A stretch of 35,476 bases of DNA. Source: Thermoplasmata archaeon. Its GTDB lineage: Archaea; Thermoplasmatota; E2; DHVEG-1. The stretch lies in NCBI GenBank assembly GCA_014894395.1, contig JADBLO010000107.1, positions 35,924-71,399 of the forward strand. Direction: 5' to 3'. Below, in pieces: positions 4,206 to 30,030 of this stretch (position 1 is its first letter; each line of letters opens with the position of its first letter). The translations under genes and the position numbers were made by a program. The notes below the pieces were generated by a model, which saw only the letters and a list, made by a program, of their open reading frames with translations, had not been told where the DNA came from and did no database searches.

Positions 4206-5060
4206 ATGGATGCACAAGCGATACGCGCAGCAATTTATACCAGAGTATCTACTGAGGAGCAGGCAAAAGAGGGATTTTCACTCGATGCACAACTCGACAA
4301 ACTCAGGTCCTATTGTAAAGCACGGGATTGGATAGTTGCAGGTGAATATGTCGACGATGGATACTCCGGTAGAAAAACAAAACGACCCGCTTATATGAAA
4401 ATGCTTGAAGAGATAGACAAATGGGATGCACTTCTCGTCATCAAGATGGACAGAATACACAGGAACCAGAAAAATTTCATGTTCATGATGGAGCATCTCA
4501 ATAAAAACAAAAAAGAATTTGTCTCCATGAGTGAATCGTTTGATACTTCAACTGCGATAGGACGTTTTGTGATGAATATCATTCAAGGGATTGCTCAATT
4601 AGAATCCGAACAAATCGGCGAACGCGTGTACATTGGCATGGAACAAAAAGCAAAAATGAATGGTGGCGTGCTAGGTTTTAACATACCATACGGTTATGAT
4701 TATACGGACGGAAAATTAAACGTCAACCAGACAGAAGCACTGGTGATTAAGAATATTTACTCCTGGTATTTAGATCGCAAGAGCATGGGTGAAATAGTGA
4801 CAATGCTCAACGATGCAAAAGTTCCTACGAAAAACCAGGGGTTGTGGGCCAAAAAGATGGTTTCTACGATATTAAAAAATCCGATCTACTGTGGATATCT
4901 CCATTGGGAAAAATATGTGAACAAGAGCGATCACGAACCAATCATTCCCGTGCAATCCTTTAACACTGTTCAAGGATTCATCGCGGATCAAGGCGGGAAG
5001 CCCGCAGATTTTTTGGCTGAAGAGACCTCAAATCAGTTACTATCGGTCTACCGAAGGTAA
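4206..5060 (+). CDS. Serine recombinase (resolvase/integrase), short form
   Basis: The 284-residue protein has an N-terminal resolvase catalytic domain. The nucleophile is Ser15 in YTRVST, with Arg13 beside it and the catalytic triad-like Asp82-Arg83-x2-Arg86 in KMDRIHRN. SFDTSTAIGRFVMNIIQGIAQLE and the long E helix follow. Then comes a Recombinase domain (GFNIPYGYDY ... EIVTMLNDAKVPTKN ... VSTILKNPIYCGYLHW). The protein stops soon after this, at VYRR. It lacks the zinc beta-ribbon and coiled coil of full large serine integrases (usually 450 residues or more). All catalytic residues are present, so the chemistry could be intact. It is followed after 72 nt by a second, different serine recombinase. 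Confidence 0.9.
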   Translation: MDAQAIRAAIYTRVSTEEQAKEGFSLDAQLDKLRSYCKARDWIVAGEYVDDGYSGRKTKRPAYMKMLEEIDKWDALLVIKMDRIHRNQKNFMFMMEHLNKNKKEFVSMSESFDTSTAIGRFVMNIIQGIAQLESEQIGERVYIGMEQKAKMNGGVLGFNIPYGYDYTDGKLNVNQTEALVIKNIYSWYLDRKSMGEIVTMLNDAKVPTKNQGLWAKKMVSTILKNPIYCGYLHWEKYVNKSDHEPIIPVQSFNTVQGFIADQGGKPADFLAEETSNQLLSVYRR

Positions 5061-5132: not shown

Positions 5133-5873
5133 ATGTCTAAATATAGAGCGGCTTTTTACATTCGAGTAAGCACAGGAGAACAGACAAAAGGATACAGCCT
5201 AGAAGGACAAAAAGACATCCTCAATGCATGGGCTATGGAGATGGAATGGAAGTGGGTAAAAACATATTATGATGAGGCTAGTGCAAAAGATACGAAACGG
5301 AAGAAATTCCAGGAGATGATCACCGATGCGAAAAATGGCCTTTTTGATGGGATATGCATCGTCGATAGTGATAGATTCAGTAGATCCACAAAAGATTTGT
5401 TAACAGTTATGGATGATCTCCTTGCATATTCAGTAAAATTGCATATTCATAACCTACAACATATTGATATTTATAGTGAACAAGGGAGATTTACACTTAC
5501 GAATCTAGCTGCATTCAGCGAATTTTTTAGAGGGCAGCTGGCTACTAAGATTCGTGCAGGTGTAAAACAGAAGATGAAAAAGGAATGGTTTGGACAAGCA
5601 CCATATGGGTACTCCATTGTATCTGATGCCGAAGGCAGTAGGAAAAAAAACACTCATCTTGTGGTAAATCCAACTGAACAGGAAGTTCTTACGCAAATGA
5701 GAACATTGAAAAATCAAGATAAGAGTTATAGCGAAATCGCTGCTATTCTCAATAAAAATTCGGTACCTACAAGGTTACAAAGAAATGGGAATACCTGCAG
5801 CTGGCATGCATGTACGGTCAGGAATATTCTTACGAGGCCACAGGTAGACCTCAAGAAAAAGAAAGAACTTTGA
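5133..5873 (+). CDS. Second serine recombinase, short form
   Basis: The 246-residue protein has Ser13 as nucleophile in YIRVST, Arg11, and Asp80-Arg81-x2-Arg84 in DSDRFSRS. A shortened E-helix region (GRFTLTNLAAFSEFFRGQLATKIRAGVKQKM) leads into a compact Recombinase domain (APYGYSIV ... YSEIAAILNKNSVPTR ... TVRNILTRPQVDLK). It ends there in a lysine-rich tail without a zinc ribbon. It differs too much from the protein encoded just upstream to be a recent duplicate. GAGGT 8 nt upstream of the ATG is a good Shine-Dalgarno sequence. Tandem, non-identical serine recombinases recall the CcrA/CcrB pair, but these are much shorter. Confidence 0.9.
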   Translation: MSKYRAAFYIRVSTGEQTKGYSLEGQKDILNAWAMEMEWKWVKTYYDEASAKDTKRKKFQEMITDAKNGLFDGICIVDSDRFSRSTKDLLTVMDDLLAYSVKLHIHNLQHIDIYSEQGRFTLTNLAAFSEFFRGQLATKIRAGVKQKMKKEWFGQAPYGYSIVSDAEGSRKKNTHLVVNPTEQEVLTQMRTLKNQDKSYSEIAAILNKNSVPTRLQRNGNTCSWHACTVRNILTRPQVDLKKKKEL

Positions 5874-16583: not shown

Positions 16584-16872
16584 ATGCAAATACTAGAAAA
16601 GAAAAACGTGGATGAAATTGCAGTGGATAAATTAGAAAAAATTTATTCAAAAATGGGGATTACTATTGAAAGTAGTTACTATGTCCATGGTGAATACGAC
16701 TGGATTTACTCTTTACTGCTAAGGATTTAAAACAAGCAAAAAAATTCGCCGGTTTATTATTGGAAGGATACCTGGTATTGTCGCAAAGATTAGCCTTTTG
16801 CAGACACTTTTTATTCAGAGGGAACATAAAATCCTCAACCCTGATCCAACGAAACTGAGTGAATTTTTATAA
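16584..16872 (+). pseudogene. Lrp/AsnC-type ligand-binding domain protein, frameshifted
   Basis: Three consecutive frames together read as one protein of about 95 residues. The pieces are an N-terminal part ending YYVHGEYDWI, then TAKDLKQAKKFAGLLLEG, then YPGIVAKISLLQTLFIQREH and the end NPDPTKLSEFL. The GEYDW, AKDLKQAKKF and G-x-V-x-x-x-x-LL features match the RAM/AsnC C-terminal domain of Lrp-like regulators. Frame changes occur near 16706-16712 and near 16770, each fitting loss of a single base. No DNA-binding domain is seen upstream, so it was either a stand-alone ligand-binding protein or is also truncated. Two sequencing errors cannot be excluded. Confidence 0.7.
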
Positions 16873-16978: not shown

Positions 16979-17052
16979 GCCCGTATGGGGTAGCTTGGAT
17001 ATCCTAGAGGCCTGCGGAGCCTCAGACCCGGGTTCGAATCCCGGTGCGGGCG
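16979..17052 (+). tRNA. tRNA-Arg(GCG)
   Basis: The sequence folds as a complete cloverleaf. The acceptor is GCCCGTA with TGCGGGC (one G-T pair), the D stem is GGGT/ATCC, and the anticodon stem GAGGC/GCCTC has the 7-nt loop CTGCGGA, giving anticodon GCG (reads CGC). A 4-nt variable region is followed by the T arm CCGGG-TTCGAAT-CCCGG and discriminator G at 17052. No CCA is encoded. The same arrangement of D stem and variable region is known from haloarchaeal tRNA-Arg(GCG). The 3' end of this gene recurs at 19006 and 27853. Confidence 0.93.
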
Positions 17053-17056
17053 TAAC
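17037..17056 (+). other. Candidate attachment site: tRNA-Arg 3' end
   Basis: AATCCCGGTGCGGGCGTAAC, covering the 3' side of the T arm, the acceptor and 4 nt downstream, matches 19006-19024 (one mismatch) and 27853-27872 (one mismatch) in the same orientation. Integrating elements often duplicate exactly this part of a tRNA gene. Here the intact tRNA would be the left junction. Confidence 0.5.
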
Positions 17057-17446
17057 ATTATCTTCAGCAGTTCGTTAACTCTTGCAGCAGAAGAACCGAG
17101 AAATGTGATGTCATTTACGCGTTAAAATCCCAGTTTTATAATAGGTTATTCTTTCTTTTTTTTCATGATTGTATAAGGTTTTTCTAGGGGTTAAGTTTTT
17201 AGAGGTATAGGTTTTTAAAGAAAGAACCAACGAATATGTCTACATAAAAAGGGAAAAATATCCTCTTTTCTTCTATAATACTTCTCTATCTCTCATGGTG
17301 GCGACATCGCGTCTGCTCGACGATGAATCTGAACTCAGTAAAATTATTGTTACAAATGTTACAATTATATTCCAATGAAATGATTTAAATAGAGTTAAGT
17401 TATATCTTTTTCTATAAGAATATTATTTAAGGGAGAAGTAGGCATT
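17053..17446. other. Region between tRNA-Arg and secreted PKD protein, with repeat copies
   Basis: Holds a 35-nt repeat (17100-17134, starting GAAATGTGATGTCATTTACG) that recurs at 18980-19014 with one difference and in altered form at 27827. A second repeat at 17190-17223 (GGTTAAGTTTTTAGAGGTAT) recurs at 18870-18903. The first repeat copy diverges from the others exactly at the point where they continue into the tRNA-like tail. A TATA-like TTTAAATAG at 17384-17392 probably serves the gene at 17447. Confidence 0.6.
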
Positions 17447-18799
17447 ATGAAAGAATTGGGGAAGAAAGAAAATGTTATGAAAAATATATGTACGCTGCTG
17501 CTAGCTGCTATTCTCTTCGGCTCTAGTTTCTTACCAATAACCAATACCGCTCTCGGAACATCGAAACTGTATAGTAACCTCAATACATCCTCATATGAAT
17601 CCATGGGTTCTCCCACATCAGATTCAAGTTTTGAAGTAATATTGTCTGAAAACTTTACTGATGGAAACATGCCTCCAACTGATCAGCCCTGGGAACTTAA
17701 ACAAACAAACCCTTCTGAAACCTGGCATATCGACAATAGTATACCACAGTATCCAGTTTCGAAACCATCTGCTACAGTCCATCGTGGAGCTAATACTGCG
17801 CTTCAAGATGAATGGCTTATAACCCCAAGTCTCAATCTCAGTAAGTACACAAAAGTGTATCTGAAATTCTATTGGTATACCTGTTATTATGTTACGGTGT
17901 ATAAACGGTACGTTGAACTGAACGTGAGTGTTTCAACAGATGGAGGAGCGAATTGGACGAACGCCTGGAGTTTTGATGACGTCGGCGAGTTTTTCCATGA
18001 TTGGACATGGTACGATTCAATTTTACCCAACAATAATCTCATTGATTTATCTAGTTACGCAGGAGAAAGCGATGTGAAGATTGGCATCCAATATTATAGT
18101 AACAGTACAGCACAACCAGACGAACAGATGTTTAGTATCGATGATATCCTAGTTCTTGGCAATTTGACAGGAGATAAACTTTCGTGTGATGCAGGCGGCC
18201 CCTACGACTGGTGGTGGCCCATGCAATACGATTACTTCCCCGCAGGCGTACGATTCCATGGGAATCTTACCAACGGAACACTTAGAACACAATGGCTTTG
18301 GAATTTCGGCGACGGCAATACCTCCACCATTCCGTATTACCCAATCTATTTTTATGATGAGGTCGGAATCTTCAACGTTACCTTAATGGTAAAAGATAAT
18401 ACGACTACAACGCCTCGGATTGCTTTCAGCCATACAACTGTAAACTTATTCTTACTCAAACCACCGGAAATAGATATCACTGCGCAACCAATTTCACTGG
18501 GGATAAAAGCCGAAATCAATAATGGCGGGGAATACAATGCTTCATTTGTTAATTGGACGATGAAGATTTCCTGGGGTCCATTACAAATATTCGGAAAGAC
18601 TGTCGCAAATGGAACTTGTGAGAATATCGTAGCGGGAACTTCAGAGACCATTCGAAGTCCACTGTACTTCTTTGGATTTGGCAGAATGCATTTTATAATT
18701 TCTGCATATCCTGAAAATCTTCCAGGTATCATTAAACATTACAATGGCCTTAAGCTAGGACCACTGGTCCTCGTTTTAAAAGAAACAGGGATCCAATAA
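17447..18799 (+). CDS. Secreted choice-of-anchor J / PKD-domain protein
   Basis: The 450-residue protein has a signal peptide whose core is ICTLLLAAILFGSSFLPI. A cleaved-adhesin or choice-of-anchor-J-like beta domain covers about residues 62-240 (SENFTDG-MPP-W, WLITPSLNLS, VELNVSVSTDGGANWTNAWSF, DVKIGIQYYSN ... FSIDDILV). A PKD domain follows (WLWNFGDGNTSTIPYYPIYFYDEVGIFNVTLMVKD), then a C-terminal beta domain without a membrane anchor. It is probably bound at the cell surface or released. Many N-x-S/T sites suit archaeal glycosylation. GGGAG 11 nt upstream supports the ATG at 17447; an ATG ten codons on is an alternative. It is flanked on both sides by copies of the same short repeats. Confidence 0.8.
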   Translation: MKELGKKENVMKNICTLLLAAILFGSSFLPITNTALGTSKLYSNLNTSSYESMGSPTSDSSFEVILSENFTDGNMPPTDQPWELKQTNPSETWHIDNSIPQYPVSKPSATVHRGANTALQDEWLITPSLNLSKYTKVYLKFYWYTCYYVTVYKRYVELNVSVSTDGGANWTNAWSFDDVGEFFHDWTWYDSILPNNNLIDLSSYAGESDVKIGIQYYSNSTAQPDEQMFSIDDILVLGNLTGDKLSCDAGGPYDWWWPMQYDYFPAGVRFHGNLTNGTLRTQWLWNFGDGNTSTIPYYPIYFYDEVGIFNVTLMVKDNTTTTPRIAFSHTTVNLFLLKPPEIDITAQPISLGIKAEINNGGEYNASFVNWTMKISWGPLQIFGKTVANGTCENIVAGTSETIRSPLYFFGFGRMHFIISAYPENLPGIIKHYNGLKLGPLVLVLKETGIQ

Positions 18800-19130
18800 G
18801 CACACAAGATCACAGCTCGCCCCCCATCTTTTTTCTTTTTATATCTATTAACGATTAGCCTAAAACCTGGGTTAAGTTTTAGATGTATAGATTTTTTAAG
18901 AAATAATCTAATAGGAGTTACTATTGGAAGTGATTCGAAGAAATCAATTTTTACTTTGTCTCAACAGATAAGACATACTGAAATGTGACGTCATTTACGC
19001 GTTAAAATCCCAGTGCGGGCGTAATTTTTCCATTTTTAGTGAAGAAAAAAAAAGAAAGAAATAGATATTCGGTGGATTACGGTCTATTCCTGAACTGGTA
19101 ACGCAGTGTTTCAATTGCCCCTTTCATGTT
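18800..19130. other. Downstream region with repeat copies between convergent genes
   Basis: Directly after the PKD gene a C-run and T-tract (CCCCCCATCTTTTTTCTTTT) may end transcription. Copies of the repeats seen at 17190 and 17100 follow in reverse order (18870-18903, then 18980-19014). The latter runs directly into the tRNA-like tail at 19006-19024. From 18932 onward the sequence belongs to the long direct repeat shared with 27779-28118. Confidence 0.6.
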
Positions 19131-19228
19131 TTATTTCAATAGATTTTGAAGGAACTGCAATAGATTGTGAAGGAACTGTGCAAGTAACGACATCATCTGC
19201 GTACTCTTGCTTGTAGGCATGGTAATCG
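18932..19228. repeat. Long direct repeat, copy 1 (with tRNA-Arg tail)
   Basis: From GATTCGAAGAAATC to GGCATGGTAATCG this block matches 27779-28118. It contains the tRNA-like tail AATCCCAGTGCGGGCGTAA (19006-19024), an A-rich stretch, and the last 98 nt of the C25 peptidase gene with its 3' flank. Over 19076-19228 I see a single mismatch to copy 2 (A/T, giving Met or Leu). Copy 2 has an extra ~41-bp tandem unit. Confidence 0.9.
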
Positions 19229-21281
19229 GCAGAGGATCTGACCAGCTGCTTTCTGCATTATAGGTATCCTTTGCTTTCACCCTGACTTCATAGCTCCCTT
19301 TTTTATCCCACCTGTGAGCAATACTTATTTCTTCGCCAGAAGTGTATGGTCCTAACCATTCAGACAAATTGTTGTCTCCCCAGTCCCATTGACAATAAAC
19401 AAGATTCCCATCAGGATCCGTTATGGTTGTAGTGTAGAGATAATTCTCCCCAACATGTCCTGATTCGGCACCTACTGGTTTCTGGGGTTTTTCTGGTGGA
19501 GAGTTGCCAAGGCCTACCATTGGATCGCCGAACAGATTCAACTCATAAAAAACCCAGCGCATAATTTGGTCATCATCGTTGATACGGTAGATGTTGTCTT
19601 CTTTAGAATCTTGATTTGCTTTACTGATTACGGTGATGTTCTCACCAAAGATAGCATCCCAAAATTCTCGATTATACCGTTGCGATGGCCCATCCGTACT
19701 CTCGTAATACCCCCATCCCTCTCGGGAATTCATAACAAGTGCAAACGCACCATACTCTGTCTTCACATTCATATGCTCCGCGAAACAATCCGCTAGATCA
19801 AAATGACCTGCGAGGCAGGTTTGAGAATAGATGAAACAGTGTTGAACATTCGTGAGGGCGTCAGCATCTGGGTTATACATTTTCATGGCATAGTCTATGT
19901 TTCCATGCCCGAGATGGTTTATGATGTGCACACCGTCATTGATGATGGCGATAATCTCTGATTTTGGCCAGTTGTAACCAGGTCGATCAAATAGTTTGTA
20001 GATAAGGTATTTATCGGGTTCATTAGGAATACCCACCGTTGTGTAGCCATGAGCACTGGATCCGTTTATCAGCTCCTCTAAAATATTTCCGGCGTACTCA
20101 GCGACACCACCAAACCCAAGATGCTCCCCCACCAGCCAAACATCATGATTGGATGTATCACTTTTGTTTATATACGCTAATGTTTTATTGATAAAATGAT
20201 CGACTTCAGCTACGGCACCAACGCATGCTCTGCCGACATAGACTTCAGCGATAAGGTCAACATCACCCCCATCGTCGCCATCAGTCGGTTCACCCCACAT
20301 CGTATCGCCGTCAGAGTTATAACTCCCGTCAAGACAGGCATAGTATAAATCAGACGGTATATCTTCATTGTTCACACGGAGTTTTCGTACTGGGACGATA
20401 TTATCATCGCCACCAATAAGAACATACTCGATACTGCAGTTGAGATAGACATCTCTGATGTAGTCACGGATATCCGCAGGGTCGTTACTTCCTATCTCAG
20501 TAAGTGTTTTTATTATCGTATTGTGTACTTGTTTCAACGGCTCGAACCCAGCCTTCAATGTTTCAGTCGTGACAATAAGCAAGTCATATGTTTCAGATGA
20601 GGGAGAACACGTATGTTCTGCATAGGTGTCGATCACTGCAGGATTATCGACTTTTCCTCTTACCCCTTCTGCATCTGTTGCCAACCCACGAAATAAACTG
20701 TTTATATGAGCATCAGTGGATGTCTCCACTGAAACTGTGAACTCCGTATAATAGAAAAGTCCACCCGTGTAGGGAATATATTGCACAGGATAGAGTCTCA
20801 AAATAAGAATAGTATAGCCTCTGAAACTATAGGTACCAACTTCAGTAAACAACTCGCCAGGATAGATTGCTGTAGACGTATAGTTCTTTTCACTTGATGT
20901 AGGTGTTGATACTGGCGGGTACTGTGAGAATGGTACAGGCTCGCCAACTGGAGGGACTATAAAGCCAGTCCCTAATGAATTTTGTGCACCAGGAACCACT
21001 GTTATCCTCTCAACTTTTGTGCCATACGGAAGGAGCAAAGATGCTCCATATGCCGGCAAAGAGGGTAAACCAGGATCGCCAGAGCATGGAGCACCATCCA
21101 AATCTACCTGATCATACGTGTTACTATCCACTGATATCTTCTGCATCACCGGCGTGGTAAATGAATATATCATCGTAATTGTATTGGAATCGTTATCTTC
21201 CACTGCAAAAACAGAACAGGAACTTGTTAGAAGAATAATAATGATTACACCTATCTTTAGAGTAATATTTTTTTTATACAT
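19131..21281 (-). CDS. Secreted gingipain-like peptidase (family C25) with PKD domain
   Basis: From the ATG at 21281 the protein has 716 residues. The signal peptide starts MYKKNITLKIGVIIIILLTS. A propeptide-like region leads to a C25 catalytic domain (LLIVTTETLKAGFEPL, YVLIGGDDNIVPVR, VYVGRACVGAVAEVDHFINKTL). His459 lies in NHLGHGN and Cys489 in YSQTCLAGHF as the catalytic dyad, spaced as in gingipains. The domain ends with NLFGDPMVGLG. A PKD domain follows (WDWGDNNLSEW ... VRVKAKDTYNAESSW), then an amphipathic tail ending FLHNLLQFLQNLLK. A longer open frame begins at 21356, but that ATG lies inside a terminator hairpin and lacks a signal-peptide context. CGGAG 5-6 nt before 21281 supports the chosen start. 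Confidence 0.88.
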   Translation of the reverse strand: MYKKNITLKIGVIIIILLTSSCSVFAVEDNDSNTITMIYSFTTPVMQKISVDSNTYDQVDLDGAPCSGDPGLPSLPAYGASLLLPYGTKVERITVVPGAQNSLGTGFIVPPVGEPVPFSQYPPVSTPTSSEKNYTSTAIYPGELFTEVGTYSFRGYTILILRLYPVQYIPYTGGLFYYTEFTVSVETSTDAHINSLFRGLATDAEGVRGKVDNPAVIDTYAEHTCSPSSETYDLLIVTTETLKAGFEPLKQVHNTIIKTLTEIGSNDPADIRDYIRDVYLNCSIEYVLIGGDDNIVPVRKLRVNNEDIPSDLYYACLDGSYNSDGDTMWGEPTDGDDGGDVDLIAEVYVGRACVGAVAEVDHFINKTLAYINKSDTSNHDVWLVGEHLGFGGVAEYAGNILEELINGSSAHGYTTVGIPNEPDKYLIYKLFDRPGYNWPKSEIIAIINDGVHIINHLGHGNIDYAMKMYNPDADALTNVQHCFIYSQTCLAGHFDLADCFAEHMNVKTEYGAFALVMNSREGWGYYESTDGPSQRYNREFWDAIFGENITVISKANQDSKEDNIYRINDDDQIMRWVFYELNLFGDPMVGLGNSPPEKPQKPVGAESGHVGENYLYTTTITDPDGNLVYCQWDWGDNNLSEWLGPYTSGEEISIAHRWDKKGSYEVRVKAKDTYNAESSWSDPLPITMPTSKSTQMMSLLAQFLHNLLQFLQNLLK

Positions 21282-21334
21282 TTTTTCTCCGCATCCTTTT
21301 GTTTCTCCTTTCATTGATAGCTGAGCACCGCTAT

Positions 21335-21373
21335 AAAAAAAAAGAGAGGTAGACATCTACACTGTAGATGTCT
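21335..21373 (-). terminator. Hairpin plus T-tract between beta-helix and C25 genes
   Basis: AGACATCTACA and TGTAGATGTCT form a perfect 11-bp inverted repeat with one central base (21351-21373). On the minus strand it is followed by CTCTC and nine T residues (21343-21335). It lies 9 nt after the stop of the beta-helix gene and before the C25 start, so it should end or attenuate transcription between them. Confidence 0.7.
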
Positions 21374-21381
21374 TAGAGAGA

Positions 21382-24300
21382 TTACTCCCCGCCTAATATT
21401 CCAAGGCAGAATATCCGCATATCCTGTGTTGTAGCCGTGCTTAATCCAGCATTATCGAATGCAGTTGTCGTTAGTGTATAGAGGCCGACACGTTTGGTGT
21501 TTAACTCCCATTCGTATGGTGATCCGTCATCGACATGGTCTGGTGCTGTACCGAAGGTGAACTCTACGCGAGTTATGTTAGATACGTTATCGGATGCTTC
21601 AGCAACGACTGTAATAGGTCCGATTATCCTTGTCGTTTTAAGGCCTGAAAGTATCTTTATGCCAAAGAAGTAAAACCCCCCGTCTACAGGGGTTGTAACC
21701 TCGAGGGTAGGCGCTGTCTTGTCAATTTTGACTTCTGCTGCCTTTTCGTTTTCTTCGTTTCCAGCACTGTCAACAGACTGGTAGTATAATGTATGTACCC
21801 CTTCTTCTGTTATTATGAATGGTGCGCTATACGTAGTCCAAGATCCCTCATCAAGTTTGTAGCGTGTCTCAGCTACACCAGATGTGGTATCGGCTGCTGT
21901 AAGTTTTACTTCGACATCACTGATAAACCAATTGTTGTCTCCTGCCTCAGCAGTGAATTTTACGGTGGTAGTTGGTGGCGTCTGATCTATCTTAAATGTT
22001 ACTGATTTCTCTGTCTCTTGTCCTCCTGCATTGTCGTAGGAATAGAAAAGAACAATGTGTTCCCCGTTTGTCGTCACAGTGAATGGCGTGGAGTAGATCT
22101 GGTAAAACCCGGTATCGACTTTATACCATGTTGATGCTACACCAGAGCCTTCATCGGTTGCAGACAGGGTTACCTCAACGGAACTAATGTACCATCCGTT
22201 TTCTCCGTTTGGTGTCAAGGGATCAAGTACGGCTGTTGTAACTGGCGGTGTTTGGTCGATCTTGAGTACCACTGTTTTTGTAGTTTCTGTGTTTCCTGCC
22301 TTGTCAGTAGAGTTGTAGAGCAAGGTGTGTACGCCATTGGTAGTTACGGTAAACGTATTCGTGTATTCTTGCCAAGGACTGCCATCGAGTTTGTACCATG
22401 TCGATTCAACGCCAGAGCCTGCATCGGTTGCGGATAACATTACGTTGACGTTGCTGACATACCATCCGTTGCTACCCATTGTTCCAGAGAATGAATGTGT
22501 CGTAACGGGTGGTGTACCATCTGTTAGGATGGTGAATGTCCAAACATCTGACCAGTTCCCGACATTTTCAGCTACATCGGTTGCTCGTGCGTGCCAGTAA
22601 TACTGTCCAGATGATAACCAATCATCTGGCGGTACTTGATACTGCGATACGTTAACATCTACTGAAAAGACGATATTGCTAAATAGGTGGTCGTATGCTA
22701 CCTGGAGGGTGTAATGGTCGACATCTCCAGCATCATACGAATCTGTCCAGTTAAAGAACGGTTGCGAGCTTTCTAACTCAGATCCATTAAGAGGTGCTAT
22801 AGGTGTTGGTGCCGTTGGCGGCGTTGCATCTTCAACAGTGTTGAACACACCAATTATTGACCAGTCGCCAAGACGTCCTAATACATCGACGGCTCGTACT
22901 TCCCAGTAATATGTTTGGGGAACGAGCAATGTACTTATTGTTTGATAGGAGGAGCTTGTAAGACCGGTTTTATTAATGACGGTATTGACAAAGTTGAAGT
23001 CGGTTGCGACTTTAAGTCGATATTCGCTTATGCCACATACATCAGTAACATTTCCCCAGTCAAACAACGGCTTTAATTTTTCTATATCCCCCAGTGGTGA
23101 TACAAGGGTTGGCGCATTGGGTGGTGTTTGGTCAATGGTGAATGTCTTGTTTCTCGCGTATTCAGTATTGCCGAGGACATCAACGGAGTAATAATACACT
23201 TTATGTGGGCCATCAGCACTGACAACAACGGGAGCGGTATATTCAACCCAACTTCCTCCATCAACCTTGTAGTAGGTGGCATCAACGCCTGTATAGTCTA
23301 CCGCGGTAAGCGTTATTTGTACGTTACTTACATACCAGCTGCCTATGTATGCTCCAGTAAGTATAGCGGTTGTCACCGGTGGTATGTCGTCCTTCGTCGG
23401 GTTCATTAATGGGTAATCGTCTTGGTTGCCACTACCACCAGCAATGTTAGTGTATGGTGTATCTCCGATGCCGTCACTACCACTGATGTTTTGTCCAGGT
23501 CCCTGGAAGATATCTGTACCAGTATAGTCGTCCCAGAAGTTTCCACCAGAGGGATACCCGTCATCCCAAGTAGATGGATTAATATCGTAAGCATTATAAG
23601 GGGTGTTGTTGACAAAGTTGTTGTGGTAGAGATGACAGGCGGAGTTATACTTCAGGTAAATTCCATAGAGTCCATTGGTGTAAATGCTGTTGTTTGCTAT
23701 TTCAGAACCGCTTGATGAGTGATACAAGTATAGTCCTTGCTGTTTGTTGTTATGGACTGTGCAGTTCTTGATTTCGAGACCACTGCTGAAATACGCGTAA
23801 AGCCCTACAGTGAGGTTTGCCATTTCACAGTTTATGATTTTACATTCTGGGCCGTTATAAAATCTAAACCCATTTCCAACAATATCTAATACGGCACAGT
23901 CTATAAAGTCAATAGTCGTAGAACTGACAATATCGAATCCGGATCCGCCGTGTCTGGTAACGTTTTCAAAGGTACAGTCAAAGGAATTAATAACGAATGC
24001 GCCTTCTGGTTCTGAGTTGAGTACCGTGATATTAGAACAGCTCGATAGTCCTATCCAGCCAACATTATCTGTCTCATCCAAGGCGATATTTTGCTTTTGG
24101 TAAAGATAGTATATTGGTTTACCGTTGACGGTGTTGGAGGTATCGATGTCGCAATTTGGGTAAAACCCTGCGAAGTTGATGGCGTTATTGTTCATACTAT
24201 TATTTCTCATTGTAACTGGTTTTTCTACAGTTCCCGCAATTTGTATTCCCATGCCTATATTGTTATGAACAGTATTGCCTGTTAAGCTGTGGTAACCAAG

Positions 24301-27207
24301 AACTACGGGGTTCTGACACTCTAGTTTTATACCTGAACTTGATGCACCGTTACCGTTGTTATAGACGTCACAGTTGATGACCTGGTCGTGGTGGCCAGTC
24401 GTTATACAGATACCGTGGTTATAATTGTTATAGATTGTGCAGTTGATAATAGTATTATAGAAATCCCAGCCCCCGTATATACCAGCTTGGTACTGCGCCC
24501 CTCCGACAACTCTGTTGTCATGGAAGGAACTATTCTCAATTGTTGCGTATGATCCGTAGGATGAAAAGTAGAACCCGTAGCTGTTCCCATATGCTTCACA
24601 GTTATACCAGTGGTTGTTGATTGCTGCTGTGTCTCGTACATAGAATCCGATGTAACAACCACCATGAATAACGGTGTCTGTTACGTGATTATTTTTTGCT
24701 TGGTCTTGCCATCGTTGTGCTATGTAATAATTGGCTATGTCACAGTTGCTTATGGAATTGTTGTGCGATGCACCGTTTCCACGTATTCCAAAGGTATTCA
24801 CGGCATAGATGTCATTATAAATCGTGCATTCTGTAATCGTGTTATGATGGGAGTTGATAAGATAGATCCCATAGGCAGCGTTATGAATGGTACAGTTAGT
24901 TATTGTTGTATATGATGTGGCAAATAAGTATACTCCCACTGCTGCGTCATGAATAAGCGTGTCAGCCAGTGTTATCTCGTTAGAGTTGATAATAATTGCA
25001 CCTGGGATATTTTGTTCTTCAACCGTAACATTATGACAGGAGATCAAGCCAAGGAACCCGATGTCTTCTTCCACGGTCATATCGCTTATATTGGATACGT
25101 AAAAGATTGTCTTTCCTTGAATGGTATTTGAAGTATCCATATCGTAGGTGTAAAAATCGTTCACGTCATCATTGTCGATTTTGAAGTTGAAGGTATTATT
25201 ATAGATATGTATATTTCGCATTTTCACTTTTGAAGAGTATAAAAACTGTACACCAAAATTACAATCATAGAATTCACTGTTTGTCAGATTAATACCATCA
25301 ACATTAGTGCAAAAGAGTGCGTTTCCTCCACCATGAGAATCTACATTGGTAAGGTTAACTCTTTTACTGTTTACGATAATTGCACCATTCATATCTGAGT
25401 CGCTGACGGATACATTTGTACAACCAATCAATCCTAAGAATCCAACATTACTGAGCGTCTTATTCACTTGTGAGATAAGATAAAAGATAGGCTTACTGTT
25501 TATGGTGTTGGTTGGACCAATATTTTGAGTGTAATCAGCTATTACTCCTTGTACATCAAAGTTAATGTCATTGTTGTTAATGCTATTGCCTGAGAGTACA
25601 CAATTTGCCGACTTGATAAGTACTACTCCCCAGTGGCTATCAGCAAAGGTACACCCAGTAAGTGTAGTAAGTTTCCCATTATTCAGAAGGATAGCGTACC
25701 CACTGTTATTATATGAGGCACAGTTTGTAAAGACATTATTGATCGATGCTGGATCATATCCAATACGGGAATTGCTTATACCGCTCTTGCCATTGTTGTA
25801 GAACTCACAGTTGGTAAAGACATTCCAACTTGAACCAGATTCCATTTCGATACCATCGTTATCGTTATTATAAAAATGGCAGTTGGTAAATGTGTTATCT
25901 GTGGAAGTATACATATCCATGCCTATGCCTGTATAATCGGAATTTAGCCCACCTTTAGATACCCCATAGATGGTAAAATTAACAAAGGTAGAGTGGGTCG
26001 TTGTGTGGAGCCAAGAGCCATATGATTCAGGATACGATGCATGAGAGGCACTACAGTTAATAATGGTGTTGTATGAAGGATTTGCTGTTATACTGAAACT
26101 GCTGCCGATGCTATGACAGTTGATATATGTGTTACCCGTGCCGTAATATCCATAGATGCCTGAATAAGATACGCAGTTTATATGCGTGTTATTCCGAGCG
26201 TTACTGGAATAGACGCCATCGCCGATGTCATCATAGGAGAGAATGTTAATAATCTGATTGTATCTGCAGTACTTCGAATCTGTATACCACAAGAAAAGCC
26301 CGTATTCGTTGTCATGCGTAGTACAGTTTATGATTGTACTATACCATGAAATAACGAAGATACAGTAGAAGTTTTCATAGAGTTCACAGTTTTCAAAAGT
26401 AACGTAATTACCCAGTATTTGAACGCCAGCATCTCTATTTGGGGCCCATTCTTCACCGCCGTCTTTGACCTGGAAGTTCTTCATTACAACATTATCGGCG
26501 GTAATAACAACAACCGTTGCATAGTTTTGGGCGTCGATGATTGTATTCTCCTTGCTTTCGCCGATGAGTTGTATTGCTTTATCTACGATAACGTTTTCAT
26601 AGTAGGTACCGTTGAGCACATACACAGTGTCCCCTGCTGTTGCATTCTCTATACCCTGCCAGATGTACTGATATGGATATTGTTGTGTGCCTGCCCAGGG
26701 TCCTGCAGTATTGTCATCGTCAACATAGATTGTAATGCCTGTTGGAATCACTTGTGTTCTCTCACCGGCAAGATCTACATCTCCAAACCGGTCAGTAGGT
26801 GGCACGTAAGGCTCAGCTTCTCCGTCATTTCCTTCTCTATATATAGTATAGACATCCTGGGGAACTTCTTGCTCTGGTGTGACTTCCCCGGTAACTTTAA
26901 CAAAGACTTTATCAATCCGTCTCTCGGCATCAGTATTTGTTTCCCCTTCTAGCATATATTCTGTATCGGCCAAAGCCGGTATATCACCAGTAATTCCTGT
27001 ATTATCACTATTACTTACAGTAGTTTTAGCTGTTTCTTTAGTATCAGCATTGGTAGTTTCTACCATATTTTTTATGCTAGCAGTATTCCCACTATTGGAC
27101 GTTACTCCAATTGTCCCGACGTTAGCAAACGCGGCTGTCCCCGGCAACACAAACGCCAAGGCAACGGCGAATACTACAATTACTTTATACATATTTTTTT
27201 TATGCAT
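21382..27207 (-). CDS. Giant secreted NosD-type beta-helix protein with Ig-like repeats
   Basis: The 1941-residue protein has a signal peptide (VIVVFAVALAFVLPGTAAFA, cut near residue 28) and a Thr/Asn/Ser-rich linker. A right-handed beta-helix runs from about residue 170 to 1270. It opens with ITIYVDDDNTAGPWAGTQQY, then GDTVYVLNGTYYENVIV, and continues with dozens of ~22-residue N-C-x-I/F-x-N-x-x-x-G turns. The end is NosD-like (YHNNFVNN ... GGNFWDDY). Next come an OmpL47-like Ig repeat (YKVDGGSWVEY), two fibronectin-III-like domains (PLFDWGNVTD, PFFNWTDSYD), three more OmpL47-like repeats and a final Big_9-like domain. There is no membrane anchor. It could bind or cleave polysaccharide or act as a surface adhesin. 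GAGGTAG 6-7 nt upstream supports the start. Confidence 0.85.
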   Translation of the reverse strand: MHKKNMYKVIVVFAVALAFVLPGTAAFANVGTIGVTSNSGNTASIKNMVETTNADTKETAKTTVSNSDNTGITGDIPALADTEYMLEGETNTDAERRIDKVFVKVTGEVTPEQEVPQDVYTIYREGNDGEAEPYVPPTDRFGDVDLAGERTQVIPTGITIYVDDDNTAGPWAGTQQYPYQYIWQGIENATAGDTVYVLNGTYYENVIVDKAIQLIGESKENTIIDAQNYATVVVITADNVVMKNFQVKDGGEEWAPNRDAGVQILGNYVTFENCELYENFYCIFVISWYSTIINCTTHDNEYGLFLWYTDSKYCRYNQIINILSYDDIGDGVYSSNARNNTHINCVSYSGIYGYYGTGNTYINCHSIGSSFSITANPSYNTIINCSASHASYPESYGSWLHTTTHSTFVNFTIYGVSKGGLNSDYTGIGMDMYTSTDNTFTNCHFYNNDNDGIEMESGSSWNVFTNCEFYNNGKSGISNSRIGYDPASINNVFTNCASYNNSGYAILLNNGKLTTLTGCTFADSHWGVVLIKSANCVLSGNSINNNDINFDVQGVIADYTQNIGPTNTINSKPIFYLISQVNKTLSNVGFLGLIGCTNVSVSDSDMNGAIIVNSKRVNLTNVDSHGGGNALFCTNVDGINLTNSEFYDCNFGVQFLYSSKVKMRNIHIYNNTFNFKIDNDDVNDFYTYDMDTSNTIQGKTIFYVSNISDMTVEEDIGFLGLISCHNVTVEEQNIPGAIIINSNEITLADTLIHDAAVGVYLFATSYTTITNCTIHNAAYGIYLINSHHNTITECTIYNDIYAVNTFGIRGNGASHNNSISNCDIANYYIAQRWQDQAKNNHVTDTVIHGGCYIGFYVRDTAAINNHWYNCEAYGNSYGFYFSSYGSYATIENSSFHDNRVVGGAQYQAGIYGGWDFYNTIINCTIYNNYNHGICITTGHHDQVINCDVYNNGNGASSSGIKLECQNPVVLGYHSLTGNTVHNNIGMGIQIAGTVEKPVTMRNNSMNNNAINFAGFYPNCDIDTSNTVNGKPIYYLYQKQNIALDETDNVGWIGLSSCSNITVLNSEPEGAFVINSFDCTFENVTRHGGSGFDIVSSTTIDFIDCAVLDIVGNGFRFYNGPECKIINCEMANLTVGLYAYFSSGLEIKNCTVHNNKQQGLYLYHSSSGSEIANNSIYTNGLYGIYLKYNSACHLYHNNFVNNTPYNAYDINPSTWDDGYPSGGNFWDDYTGTDIFQGPGQNISGSDGIGDTPYTNIAGGSGNQDDYPLMNPTKDDIPPVTTAILTGAYIGSWYVSNVQITLTAVDYTGVDATYYKVDGGSWVEYTAPVVVSADGPHKVYYYSVDVLGNTEYARNKTFTIDQTPPNAPTLVSPLGDIEKLKPLFDWGNVTDVCGISEYRLKVATDFNFVNTVINKTGLTSSSYQTISTLLVPQTYYWEVRAVDVLGRLGDWSIIGVFNTVEDATPPTAPTPIAPLNGSELESSQPFFNWTDSYDAGDVDHYTLQVAYDHLFSNIVFSVDVNVSQYQVPPDDWLSSGQYYWHARATDVAENVGNWSDVWTFTILTDGTPPVTTHSFSGTMGSNGWYVSNVNVMLSATDAGSGVESTWYKLDGSPWQEYTNTFTVTTNGVHTLLYNSTDKAGNTETTKTVVLKIDQTPPVTTAVLDPLTPNGENGWYISSVEVTLSATDEGSGVASTWYKVDTGFYQIYSTPFTVTTNGEHIVLFYSYDNAGGQETEKSVTFKIDQTPPTTTVKFTAEAGDNNWFISDVEVKLTAADTTSGVAETRYKLDEGSWTTYSAPFIITEEGVHTLYYQSVDSAGNEENEKAAEVKIDKTAPTLEVTTPVDGGFYFFGIKILSGLKTTRIIGPITVVAEASDNVSNITRVEFTFGTAPDHVDDGSPYEWELNTKRVGLYTLTTTAFDNAGLSTATTQDMRIFCLGILGGE

Positions 27208-27778
27208 TTTTTTCTACCTCTTTTTTGTTTTCTTTTTTATATTTGCGGGGAGCCCGCCCCACGACGTTCCAAACACTTCTGCAGCGTAGTTCATATCATT
27301 AATCCAATGCCGCCCTCATTTTGTTCAGTGAATCCATCGAGTAACTAAAAAACCTAAAAATTGCCTGCGCTAAAATTCTCAAGCGATATCCACCTCCAGG
27401 ATAGATAACTCCATAGCATTTCTAATACCTCCTCCAAGAGCCAGATGTGAGAAGAAAGGCGAGATACCAAATTTCCCCGTACCTGGCATAACTATTATTC
27501 CTAATCTGCGAATGCTTAATAAATGTTACTTATAACTTCCGTAAACTGGTTTAGACTGAGGACTATATGAAACGTTTATAACATTAAATGGTATAGCAAC
27601 TCCCTAGTCTACTAGACAAAAAATATAATAAAAGAACTATAAATCAGCAAAATGTGTTAACAAATGCGAGTCAGAATCTCCCCCGCGCTTTTTTATGGGG
27701 AGTTATACATGTAACTCCTACTTATCAAGAGGATAAGAAAAAAAACAAAACTCGTGCAGAGATTAATGTTGTAATTAC
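27208..27778. other. Upstream region of beta-helix gene; no gene
   Basis: About 570 nt without a supported gene. A TATA-like run (27233-27245, minus strand) precedes the beta-helix start. A GC-rich hairpin GCGGG-GAG-CCCGC at 27245-27257 abuts it in otherwise AT-rich DNA. At 27699-27718 GGAGTTA-TACATG-TAACTCC forms a 7-bp stem. The rest (27300-27690) shows no repeat, tRNA or conserved reading frame that I can see. Confidence 0.5.
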
Positions 27779-28118
27779 GATTCGAAGAAATCACTGTTTA
27801 CTTTGTCTCAACAGATAAAGCATACTGAAATGTGACGTCATTTACACGATCAAATCCCAGTGCGGGCGTAACTGTGACGTCATTTATACGATGAAATCCC
27901 AATGTTGGCGTCATTTTTCCATTTTTAGTGAAGAAAAAAAAGAAAAAAAAATAGATATCCGGGAGATTACGGTCTATTCCTGAACTGGTAACGCAGTGTT
28001 TCAATTGCCCCTTTCATGTTTTATTTCAATAGATTTTGAAGGAACTGCAATAGATTGTGAAGGAACTGTGCAAGTAACGACATCAACTGCGTACTCTTGC
28101 TTGTAGGCATGGTAATCG
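27779..28118. repeat. Long direct repeat, copy 2 (with tRNA-Arg tail)
   Basis: Matches 18932-19228. It carries the tRNA-like tail AATCCCAGTGCGGGCGTAAC at 27853-27872, then an extra ~41-bp unit (27873-27913) that repeats the preceding TGTGACGTCATTTA...CCCA...GGCGT segment with changes. The conserved flank and the last 98 nt of the M14 carboxypeptidase gene follow. The offset to copy 1 is 8890 bp in the nearly identical part. Confidence 0.9.
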
Positions 28119-30030
28119 ATAACGGATCTGACCAGGCGCTCTCTGCGCCATAGGTATCTTTGGCTTTCACTTTAATGTTGTAATCCCCTTTAGCACTCCA
28201 GGAGTTCTGAGCGGATGCCTGAGCTCCTGAGGCGAACGGTCCGAGCCATTCACTCATGTTACCATCACCCCAGTCCCACATGTAGTACAACGCATTTCCC
28301 TCTGGGTCTGTTGTACTTGTCCGATAGAGATATGTTTGACCTGGTTTTCCTGAGGCTGGTCCACTGGGCTTGTTCGGTTTATTGGGTGCCTCGTTTTCTG
28401 GTATTACCGTAACATGGAGGACTGGGCTGTACCACCAGGTCTGCCCAAAGATTTCTTCGGTGCCATCGGTTCCTTCCAGTACTTCATGATAAGAATCATT
28501 CGTCCGTTCTTTTATGATTCTCAAATAAGGATTACTACCATAGATATCTGGTCTTAGTACGGTGTTGTAGATTTGATCTACTTGTCCTTTGGCGACAAAA
28601 TAATATTCTCCAGGGGTGGTTATTACAATGCCTTCCTCATAGGTCGTAGCTGTGGTGTGTCCATTTAACGCATTATCCCATCCGGTTCCACCAATGTAAT
28701 CACCACTATGTTCATCATGATCTGTTGTGGTATATGTCCATATATTGATTGGATCCGGGTTGTTTCCATATTGAACGGAGGTATGGTCGACAACCATGCT
28801 TCCATTCACTTGCCATGTGAAATTAATTGGTGTATTTGTGTACACAACAGCATTATTTTCAACGGAATCAGATTGCCAACGGAGGTACGGTTGTGCAAGA
28901 TCGGCTTGATGTAACATAACGCGGCGTACTTCTGCTCCATATCGAGGGACTGTATCGTTTCCAAATGTAGATTCAGCGGGGTTTTTAGTATCCGACATTT
29001 CAGGGGAAAGCCAAAGGATTCCTGCTCCGGGATATGGACCAAAATCTACGTAAGGATCTTCTACTGGATTTTTTATTATGTCTGCCCCATACGCCCATGG
29101 ACCAAGTCCTCCCTCTACCGAATATCCTACTGTCTGTGGAATTGTGCCGACGCTGTACTTGTCGAGGTTTCCACCATAATCACCCATATAATCACCAAGT
29201 CTGAGGCTTGATGCATCAAAAAAGTTGAAATCAGGGGGTGCATATGTGTAGGAATATCCTGTTATTGGGCTGATTCCTGTGATGGACGAATGGGTAGATC
29301 CCCAGGGATACAGCAATAATCTTGCTCCGCCATGGAAGTCGCCTCCTAATCGAATCGTGTGGTTATTGACAAAGGCAACTAAGGTTTTTCCATTGACACT
29401 TGCCCAAATACCACCAGTTGGGTATCCTGGACCATCCATATCAGATTCCCTATTGAGATCCCAACCATGGGAATCGTATCTTTGATCGGTATCAAATCCA
29501 TAGGGATTATGCGATGCTTCGATATAGATTTCTCTGTTATCGATCAGCCATCGAAGCCAGTCTTTTGAATAATCTGGACTCTGCTCATCGGTAAAAGCCA
29601 TACGCATAAGCCAATCAGTAAACCAGTACATTCCTATTGTTCCGACGGTTTCATCACCATGAGGACCGCCAATGAAGAGAACCTCTGGCTTATGCAAGCC
29701 TAGTGATTCATTTGTAATTCGTATATAATAGTCATCATATCCGTTTGGAATTGTTCCTGTGCTGTAGAGAACATTTGCTTTAAAGACCTCGATATAACCA
29801 GGATAGTTGGTTTCTAGTGCTTGGTACCAACTAATCAGCTGTAAATAGGTAGTTGGTTTATTGTACCAATTCGGGCCGATGATCCCCATATCATCGGTTT
29901 CTTGATTGGTTTGTATATCGGTGTTTTGCTTCTGCATTTCATGTGAATATGCAGAAACAGGTTGGATGGTAGTAAGCAGCGTTATACATACAATTCCAAT
30001 GAGTATTACGTTCAATAGGTGTTTCTTCAT
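28021..30030 (-). CDS. Secreted M14 zinc carboxypeptidase with PKD domain
   Basis: The 669-residue protein has a signal peptide (LLNVILIGIVCITLLTTIQPVSA). An M14 domain follows with zinc ligands His124 and Glu127 in GGPHGDETVG and His233 in LGGDFHGGARLL, plus substrate-binding Asn193-Arg194 in GWDLNRES. A beta-rich region leads to a PKD domain (MWDWGDGNMSEWLGPF ... IKVKAKDTYGAESAW). The protein ends in the same amphipathic tail as the C25 peptidase (MPTSKSTQ ... FLHNLLQFLQNLLK). It would trim C-terminal residues from peptides outside the cell, complementing the C25 endopeptidase. TTTTATATCA at 30061-30070 is a likely TATA box and GGGG before the ATG a weak ribosome binding site. Confidence 0.9.
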   Translation of the reverse strand: MKKHLLNVILIGIVCITLLTTIQPVSAYSHEMQKQNTDIQTNQETDDMGIIGPNWYNKPTTYLQLISWYQALETNYPGYIEVFKANVLYSTGTIPNGYDDYYIRITNESLGLHKPEVLFIGGPHGDETVGTIGMYWFTDWLMRMAFTDEQSPDYSKDWLRWLIDNREIYIEASHNPYGFDTDQRYDSHGWDLNRESDMDGPGYPTGGIWASVNGKTLVAFVNNHTIRLGGDFHGGARLLLYPWGSTHSSITGISPITGYSYTYAPPDFNFFDASSLRLGDYMGDYGGNLDKYSVGTIPQTVGYSVEGGLGPWAYGADIIKNPVEDPYVDFGPYPGAGILWLSPEMSDTKNPAESTFGNDTVPRYGAEVRRVMLHQADLAQPYLRWQSDSVENNAVVYTNTPINFTWQVNGSMVVDHTSVQYGNNPDPINIWTYTTTDHDEHSGDYIGGTGWDNALNGHTTATTYEEGIVITTPGEYYFVAKGQVDQIYNTVLRPDIYGSNPYLRIIKERTNDSYHEVLEGTDGTEEIFGQTWWYSPVLHVTVIPENEAPNKPNKPSGPASGKPGQTYLYRTSTTDPEGNALYYMWDWGDGNMSEWLGPFASGAQASAQNSWSAKGDYNIKVKAKDTYGAESAWSDPLSITMPTSKSTQLMSLLAQFLHNLLQFLQNLLK

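Follow-up and report, generated by a model that had tools for sequence, protein, structure and literature searches.

Genomic islands inserted by tyrosine integrases carry an intact, regenerated tRNA gene at one end and a displaced 3' fragment of it at the other (Islander, PMC4383910; archaeal recombinases, PMC8371274). The review of archaeal recombinases also describes integrase-less elements and tandem integration (PMC8371274). CIMEs, known from bacterial conjugative elements, keep their att sites without recombination genes and stand in tandem at one target, and microCIMEs are very small gene-free units (PMC7563491). By definition, a CIME derives from an ICE or IME by deletion and moves by cis-mobilization. 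Integrons and CALINs, including the archaeal ones, form head-to-tail arrays with one or few genes per site and mostly no local integrase (PMC9668308). Integrons are also marked by attC sites folding as single-stranded hairpins and by IntI, an integrase that has a specific extra domain. The main MBG-D genome paper reports C25 peptidases, and its text makes no mention of integrases or tRNA. The tRNA-Arg locus analysed here resembles each of these systems in part.

The window, that is, the whole 35,476-nt stretch of archaeal DNA analysed, contains an intact tRNA-Arg(GCG) gene on the + strand (16979–17052; ARAGORN), the proposed attachment gene, which lies 3' of Hel308 and CGI121 in most relatives. 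Its 3' end, AATCCCGGTGCGGGCGTAAC, is exact at 17037 and recurs in the same + orientation at 19006 and at 27853. The copy at 27853 has 1 mismatch, and that at 19006 has 2 over 20 nt, or 1 over the 19 nt delimited by the first-pass annotation. Shuffled sequences gave an expectation of zero chance matches, and, with up to 3 mismatches allowed, the 2.73-Mb assembly holds no copy beyond the three in the window. The reported recurrence downstream of the tRNA is thus confirmed, and the match is not scattered through the genome, which had been named as grounds for rejecting the idea. The intact tRNA and the displaced 3' fragments in one orientation are as in a tRNA island. Between them, Pfam identifies a 450-aa, apparently secreted PKD-domain protein in the first block (17447–18799, + strand), and a 741-aa C25 (gingipain-type) peptidase with a PKD domain (19131–21356, – strand) and a 1941-aa beta-helix/Ig-like protein (21382–27207, – strand) in the second. 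An M14 zinc carboxypeptidase with a PKD domain (28021–30030, – strand; Pfam) forms the conserved right flank and is syntenic in four relatives (G002, G004, G005 and G007). Inspection of open reading frames and Pfam matches revealed no integrase gene between tRNA-Arg and the tails, bearing out the first-pass annotation.

The 19–20-nt match to the tRNA end is real, but it is only one end of a conserved site of ~83 bp, itself inside a longer direct repeat. Positions 18932–19024 and 27779–27871 are 92% identical, and positions 19045–19301 and 27935–28191 are 89% identical. The duplicated stretch of ~370–410 bp (copy 1, 18932–19301; copy 2, 27779–28191; both +) comprises site 1 and the C25 peptidase gene's 3' end in the one copy, and site 2 and the M14 gene's 3' end in the other. 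Because this repeat surrounds the tails, homologous recombination or duplication must also have shaped the window, and homologous recombination between the long repeats probably contributed. Site 1 (18932–19024, +) consists of a CGATTCGAAG-type box, CAACAGATA, the palindrome GACGTC (18987–18992), 9 nt, the T-loop from 19002 and the tRNA-Arg tail (19006–19024); a second palindrome is absent at this tail. Site 2 (27779–27881, +) has both palindromes: GACGTC (27834–27839), 9 nt, the core from 27849, the tail (27853–27872) and GACGTC again (27876–27881). Three degenerate units, all +, accompany these sites. The first (17104–17132) has no tail and carries the hexamer GATGTC (17107–17112). The second, a 42-bp tandem copy of the site, shares the palindrome at 27876 (27876–27910, with the unit starting at 27873 by repeat comparison) and recalls the very small gene-free microCIMEs (PMC7563491). 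The third (27656–27688) pairs GTTAAC with a tail similar to that of tRNA-Ser(GCT) and is a weak candidate, since its gap departs from the 9-nt rule by one nt.

Elements at other tRNAs that do carry an integrase show the same geometry. At eight related loci, tRNA genes are adjoined by homologous operons that encode a tyrosine integrase and an RHH-like partner, namely at Ser(GCT), Gly(GCC), Ser(GGA) twice, Leu(TAA), Leu(CAG), Leu(CAA) and Glu(CTC), with ~570–620 nt from the palindrome to the integrase gene. The integrase has Phage_integrase and SAM-like domains; its partner has no Pfam match and appears RHH-like on reading of its sequence. A palindromic hexamer lies exactly 27 nt after the T-loop start at seven of these eight tRNAs, and at the eighth with one mismatch, as compared with 2 of 38 other tRNAs (Fisher p about 5e-6). 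One of these two is the tRNA-Arg of the sister genome G002, where the hexamer is GACGTC. A complete element on contig C27 of G029 comprises tRNA-Leu(CAA), ACCGGT, the RHH-like gene, the integrase and an MCM helicase, and ends 9.4 kb on at a displaced tail, again with ACCGGT ahead of it across a gap of 9 nt; it is probably an integrated plasmid or virus. This element (L206) also encodes serine resolvase. Both window tails have GACGTC at the same 9-nt gap, and tail 2 also has GACGTC at +27. Since this geometry is shared with the RHH-integrase elements, the window tails are best assigned as attR-type sites of a tRNA-Arg version. The complete relatives thus resemble tRNA islands in that a tyrosine integrase adjoins the tRNA (PMC4383910, PMC8371274), whereas the window differs from such islands (PMC4383910) in blocks that contain no integrase, in tails standing in series and in the strict layout of palindrome, 9 nt, core, +27 and palindrome. 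A small search of open-licence papers turned up no account of this geometry, nor of arrays of this kind in Thermoprofundales.

Sister genomes vary at this locus. Hel308, CGI121 and tRNA-Arg on the left, and M14, 30101, NaH, FeADH and MFS on the right, are conserved in G002 and G007, and in G004 the same order is traceable as far as NaH. Between tRNA-Arg and M14, G002 carries 2.6 kb with a beta-lactamase-family protein and a 153-aa protein; G007 carries 3.5 kb with a 540-aa apparently secreted protein, a 95-aa protein and an Lrp-like regulator; and G004 carries 6.4 kb with an MMPL-like protein, others and a variant tail. The window blocks, including the PKD-protein gene, are absent between the same flanks in all three. 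G005, like the window, has a site with a tail next to M14, but there the neighbouring genes encode an M28-like peptidase and a different beta-helix protein. Because the sisters vary between constant flanks and G005 keeps the tail, the locus is a hotspot, with the M14-side tail a stable boundary in two species. The first-pass annotation had anticipated strains without the blocks and clean joins inside the 20-nt match. Genomes without the blocks exist, but no empty-site join is seen, because they carry other genes at this place.

Of 45 genomes from the archaeal family, a Thermoplasmata family of Thermoprofundales/MBG-D relatives represented almost entirely by MAGs, 23 have the site according to pattern and profile searches, compared with 0 of 35 genomes from other families of the same class. 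G034, G009 and G014 each consist of one contig interrupted by stretches of ~100 N, and long-range positions in them were disregarded. The anatomy of the site is fixed (CGATTCGAAG, 31–32 nt, CAACAGATA, 38 nt, CGCTCGAATCCCG); most copies have TGACGTCA, variants have ACTAGT or ACCGGT, and the tRNA-Arg acceptor end follows in a subset. The larger site comprises a 6-bp palindrome, 9 nt, and the tRNA T-loop and 3' end; in some cases a further palindrome lies 27 nt downstream of where the T-loop starts. Copies in the same orientation lie 3' of the same tRNA-Arg in G000, G025, G027, G063, G064 and the scaffolded G009, and weaker copies show the same arrangement in G010. Wherever one contig has several copies, they share one orientation, forming head-to-tail arrays. 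As in the window, copies lie between convergent genes, and their orientation to the neighbours is mixed, which rules out an integron-like rule placing the site always at a gene 3' end. The arrays with one or few genes per site and mostly no local integrase are like those of integrons and CALINs; by comparison with these (PMC9668308), the site is tRNA-derived, is anchored at a tRNA gene rather than attI, and has genes in both orientations. Nor does the site show an attC-like hairpin, its consensus fold having only 8 pairs. Relatives carry a mixed cargo that includes kinases, dehydrogenases, transporters and glycan genes, so that the earlier proposal of surface-protein cassettes as a dedicated device for diversifying the envelope is not demonstrated; envelope diversity as the selected benefit is only one possibility.

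Blocks bracketed by tRNA tails also occur elsewhere. On contig C119 of the window's own genome, three tRNA-Ser(GCT) tails, each with GTTAAC and a 9-nt gap, stand in one orientation. The first interval encodes an ABC permease, an ATPase and a 168-aa protein, and the second a 139-aa protein and two peptidases that are C25-like by sequence resemblance; neither contains an integrase. Integrase-free blocks between tRNA tails are therefore not unique to tRNA-Arg. The tRNA-Ser(GCT) gene itself lies on contig C81 together with an RHH-integrase operon, so that the genome does possess an integrase of the class. At tRNA-Gly(GCC) of G064, a 2.9-kb block encodes a histidine kinase and a response regulator, with the gap one nt off the 9-nt rule. 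Insofar as the window tails are att sites, the window blocks retain them without recombination or transfer genes and in tandem at one target, as do CIMEs (PMC7563491); a difference is that cassettes here recur alone in several genera.

Segments shared between genera end in or beside these sites. One, of 2.25 kb, carries a B12-binding radical-SAM gene and occurs in G019, G063 and G064 at about 94% identity. At one end, the point of divergence between G063 and G064 falls exactly on the junction of tRNA tail and T-loop. At the other end, the similarity between G019 and G063 runs through the complete site and its tail before breaking off, and G064 switches to the ACCGGT variant inside the site. 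The Hel308 proteins of G019 and G063/G064 are 82–83% identical over about 210–220 residues, so transfer of this segment is supported with a moderate contrast. G027 and G064 share a second segment, of 2.6 kb, at 91% identity, as against only 70% for their Hel308 proteins; one of its ends lies inside the tail, and the other lies about 15 nt from a tail in G064. In addition, a zinc dehydrogenase gene (protein 56–62% identical) adjoins related sites in three genomes.

Taken together, the att geometry, the head-to-tail arrays, the variation among sister genomes and the cassette ends in or beside att sites in other genera make it probable that tRNA-Arg(GCG) is an attachment site for a class of site-specific recombination, with the displaced tails as attR-type sites and homologous recombination also contributing. 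The claim that the tails are a footprint of site-specific integration stands on the geometry, the sister variation and the cassette ends, but needs qualification, as the 370–410-bp duplication implies homologous recombination or duplication as well and the site in relatives also occurs away from tRNA-Arg. The blocks themselves are most likely cassettes that lack an integrase, or remnants that tRNA-targeting integrases left behind. A tyrosine integrase would bind the two palindromes and exchange strands in the core at the tRNA 3' end. Insertion would restore the tRNA at the left and push the old right end away, leaving a tail, and cargo would accumulate between tRNA-Arg and M14. Repeated events, or reuse of an old attR as target, may generate head-to-tail arrays, and blocks without their own integrase would move only with an integrase supplied in trans. 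The enzyme acting at tRNA-Arg is presumed to be a tRNA-Arg version of the RHH-operon class. No integrase for the tRNA-Arg/GACGTC version was found among the 45 family genomes or the IMG/VR viral contigs, and no parental element was found at tRNA-Arg.

Alternatively, the site could be a dispersed non-coding repeat, formed long ago at tRNA-Arg. Duplication, gene conversion and unequal crossing-over would since have copied it together with its neighbouring genes, and nothing site-specific would happen today. The inclusion of the 3' ends of two paralogous genes in the long repeat fits such a history, as do the many copies lying away from tRNA-Arg in G034, G063 and G014. It also fits that the site shows no general linkage to tyrosine-integrase genes: only the RHH-integrase operons share the geometry. 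Weighing against the site-specific reading itself, these operons were found in just 9 of the 45 genomes and not in several site-rich ones (e.g., G025 and G034). Passive copying is opposed by the exact 9-nt and 27-nt geometry held in common with elements that bear an integrase at other tRNAs, by cassettes whose homology breaks off in the T-loop or tail, and by a uniform orientation wherever one contig has several copies; we consider this explanation unlikely. Much less probable still is a chance or functional resemblance, in which the tails are tandem tRNA remnants or conserved regulatory DNA and the gene differences reflect ordinary turnover near a tRNA. Some copies do lie near gene starts, CAACAGATATAAAAC is TATA-like, and the region between tRNA and M14 varies even where tails are absent, but the expectation of zero chance matches, the position between convergent genes with mixed orientation to neighbours and the att geometry all argue against it. 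That the site represents a family of tRNA-like RNA genes or pseudo-tRNAs dispersed across the genomes is scarcely credible: it contains the T-loop and the acceptor 3' strand, but the tRNA 5' half is absent and the 8-pair fold shows no compensatory change, by which a structured RNA was also rejected.

Beyond site-specific recombination at tRNA-Arg, we tentatively propose, as a possibility somewhat short of even chances, a family-wide archaeal gene-cassette system that is analogous but unrelated to integrons, in which integrase-free cassettes would be exchanged between genera at tRNA-derived att sites, palindromes would set specificity, and tRNA-Arg(GCG) would be a common docking point. If this is right, uncultured sediment archaea of the MBG-D/Thermoprofundales type swap genes in the form of cassettes at tRNA genes, those for secreted peptidases among them. 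The geometry of the tails would then provide a simple signature by which such cassettes could be recognised in any genome assembly, and the rule linking integrase to palindrome would become testable in vitro.

Several further observations concern recombinases and neighbouring genes. Three IMG/VR viral contigs (L212, L213 and L215) encode 43–46% identical integrases. In two of the three, TTTACGCGTAAA lies 545 nt before the integrase gene, and one of the three starts with tRNA-Ser(GCT). None of the viral integrase relatives in IMG/VR adjoins a tRNA-Arg tail, and viral contigs contain 0 exact matches to the site. PF00589 tyrosine-recombinase matches number 43 in G063 and 39 in G064, compared with 1–19 in relatives, and several of the proteins in these two genomes are ~320 aa long with no adjoining tRNA. 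Two serine-recombinase genes lie ~11 kb upstream of tRNA-Arg (4206–5060 and 5133–5873, both +); they were rejected as the recombinase, recurring in relatives without evident link to the sites. The two genes are also found side by side in G007, where the first is 97.5% identical, and in G014 and G025. Between CGI121 and tRNA-Arg, positions 16588–16872 resemble a broken Lrp-type regulator gene, an intact relative of which lies 3' of the tRNA in G007 (L024, 5670–6197). Finally, many apparently secreted proteins near sites (L029, L033, L073, L080, L081, L098 and others) share a C-terminal motif like LFERFPNAFPILRxLLG, which is possibly a sorting or anchoring signal.
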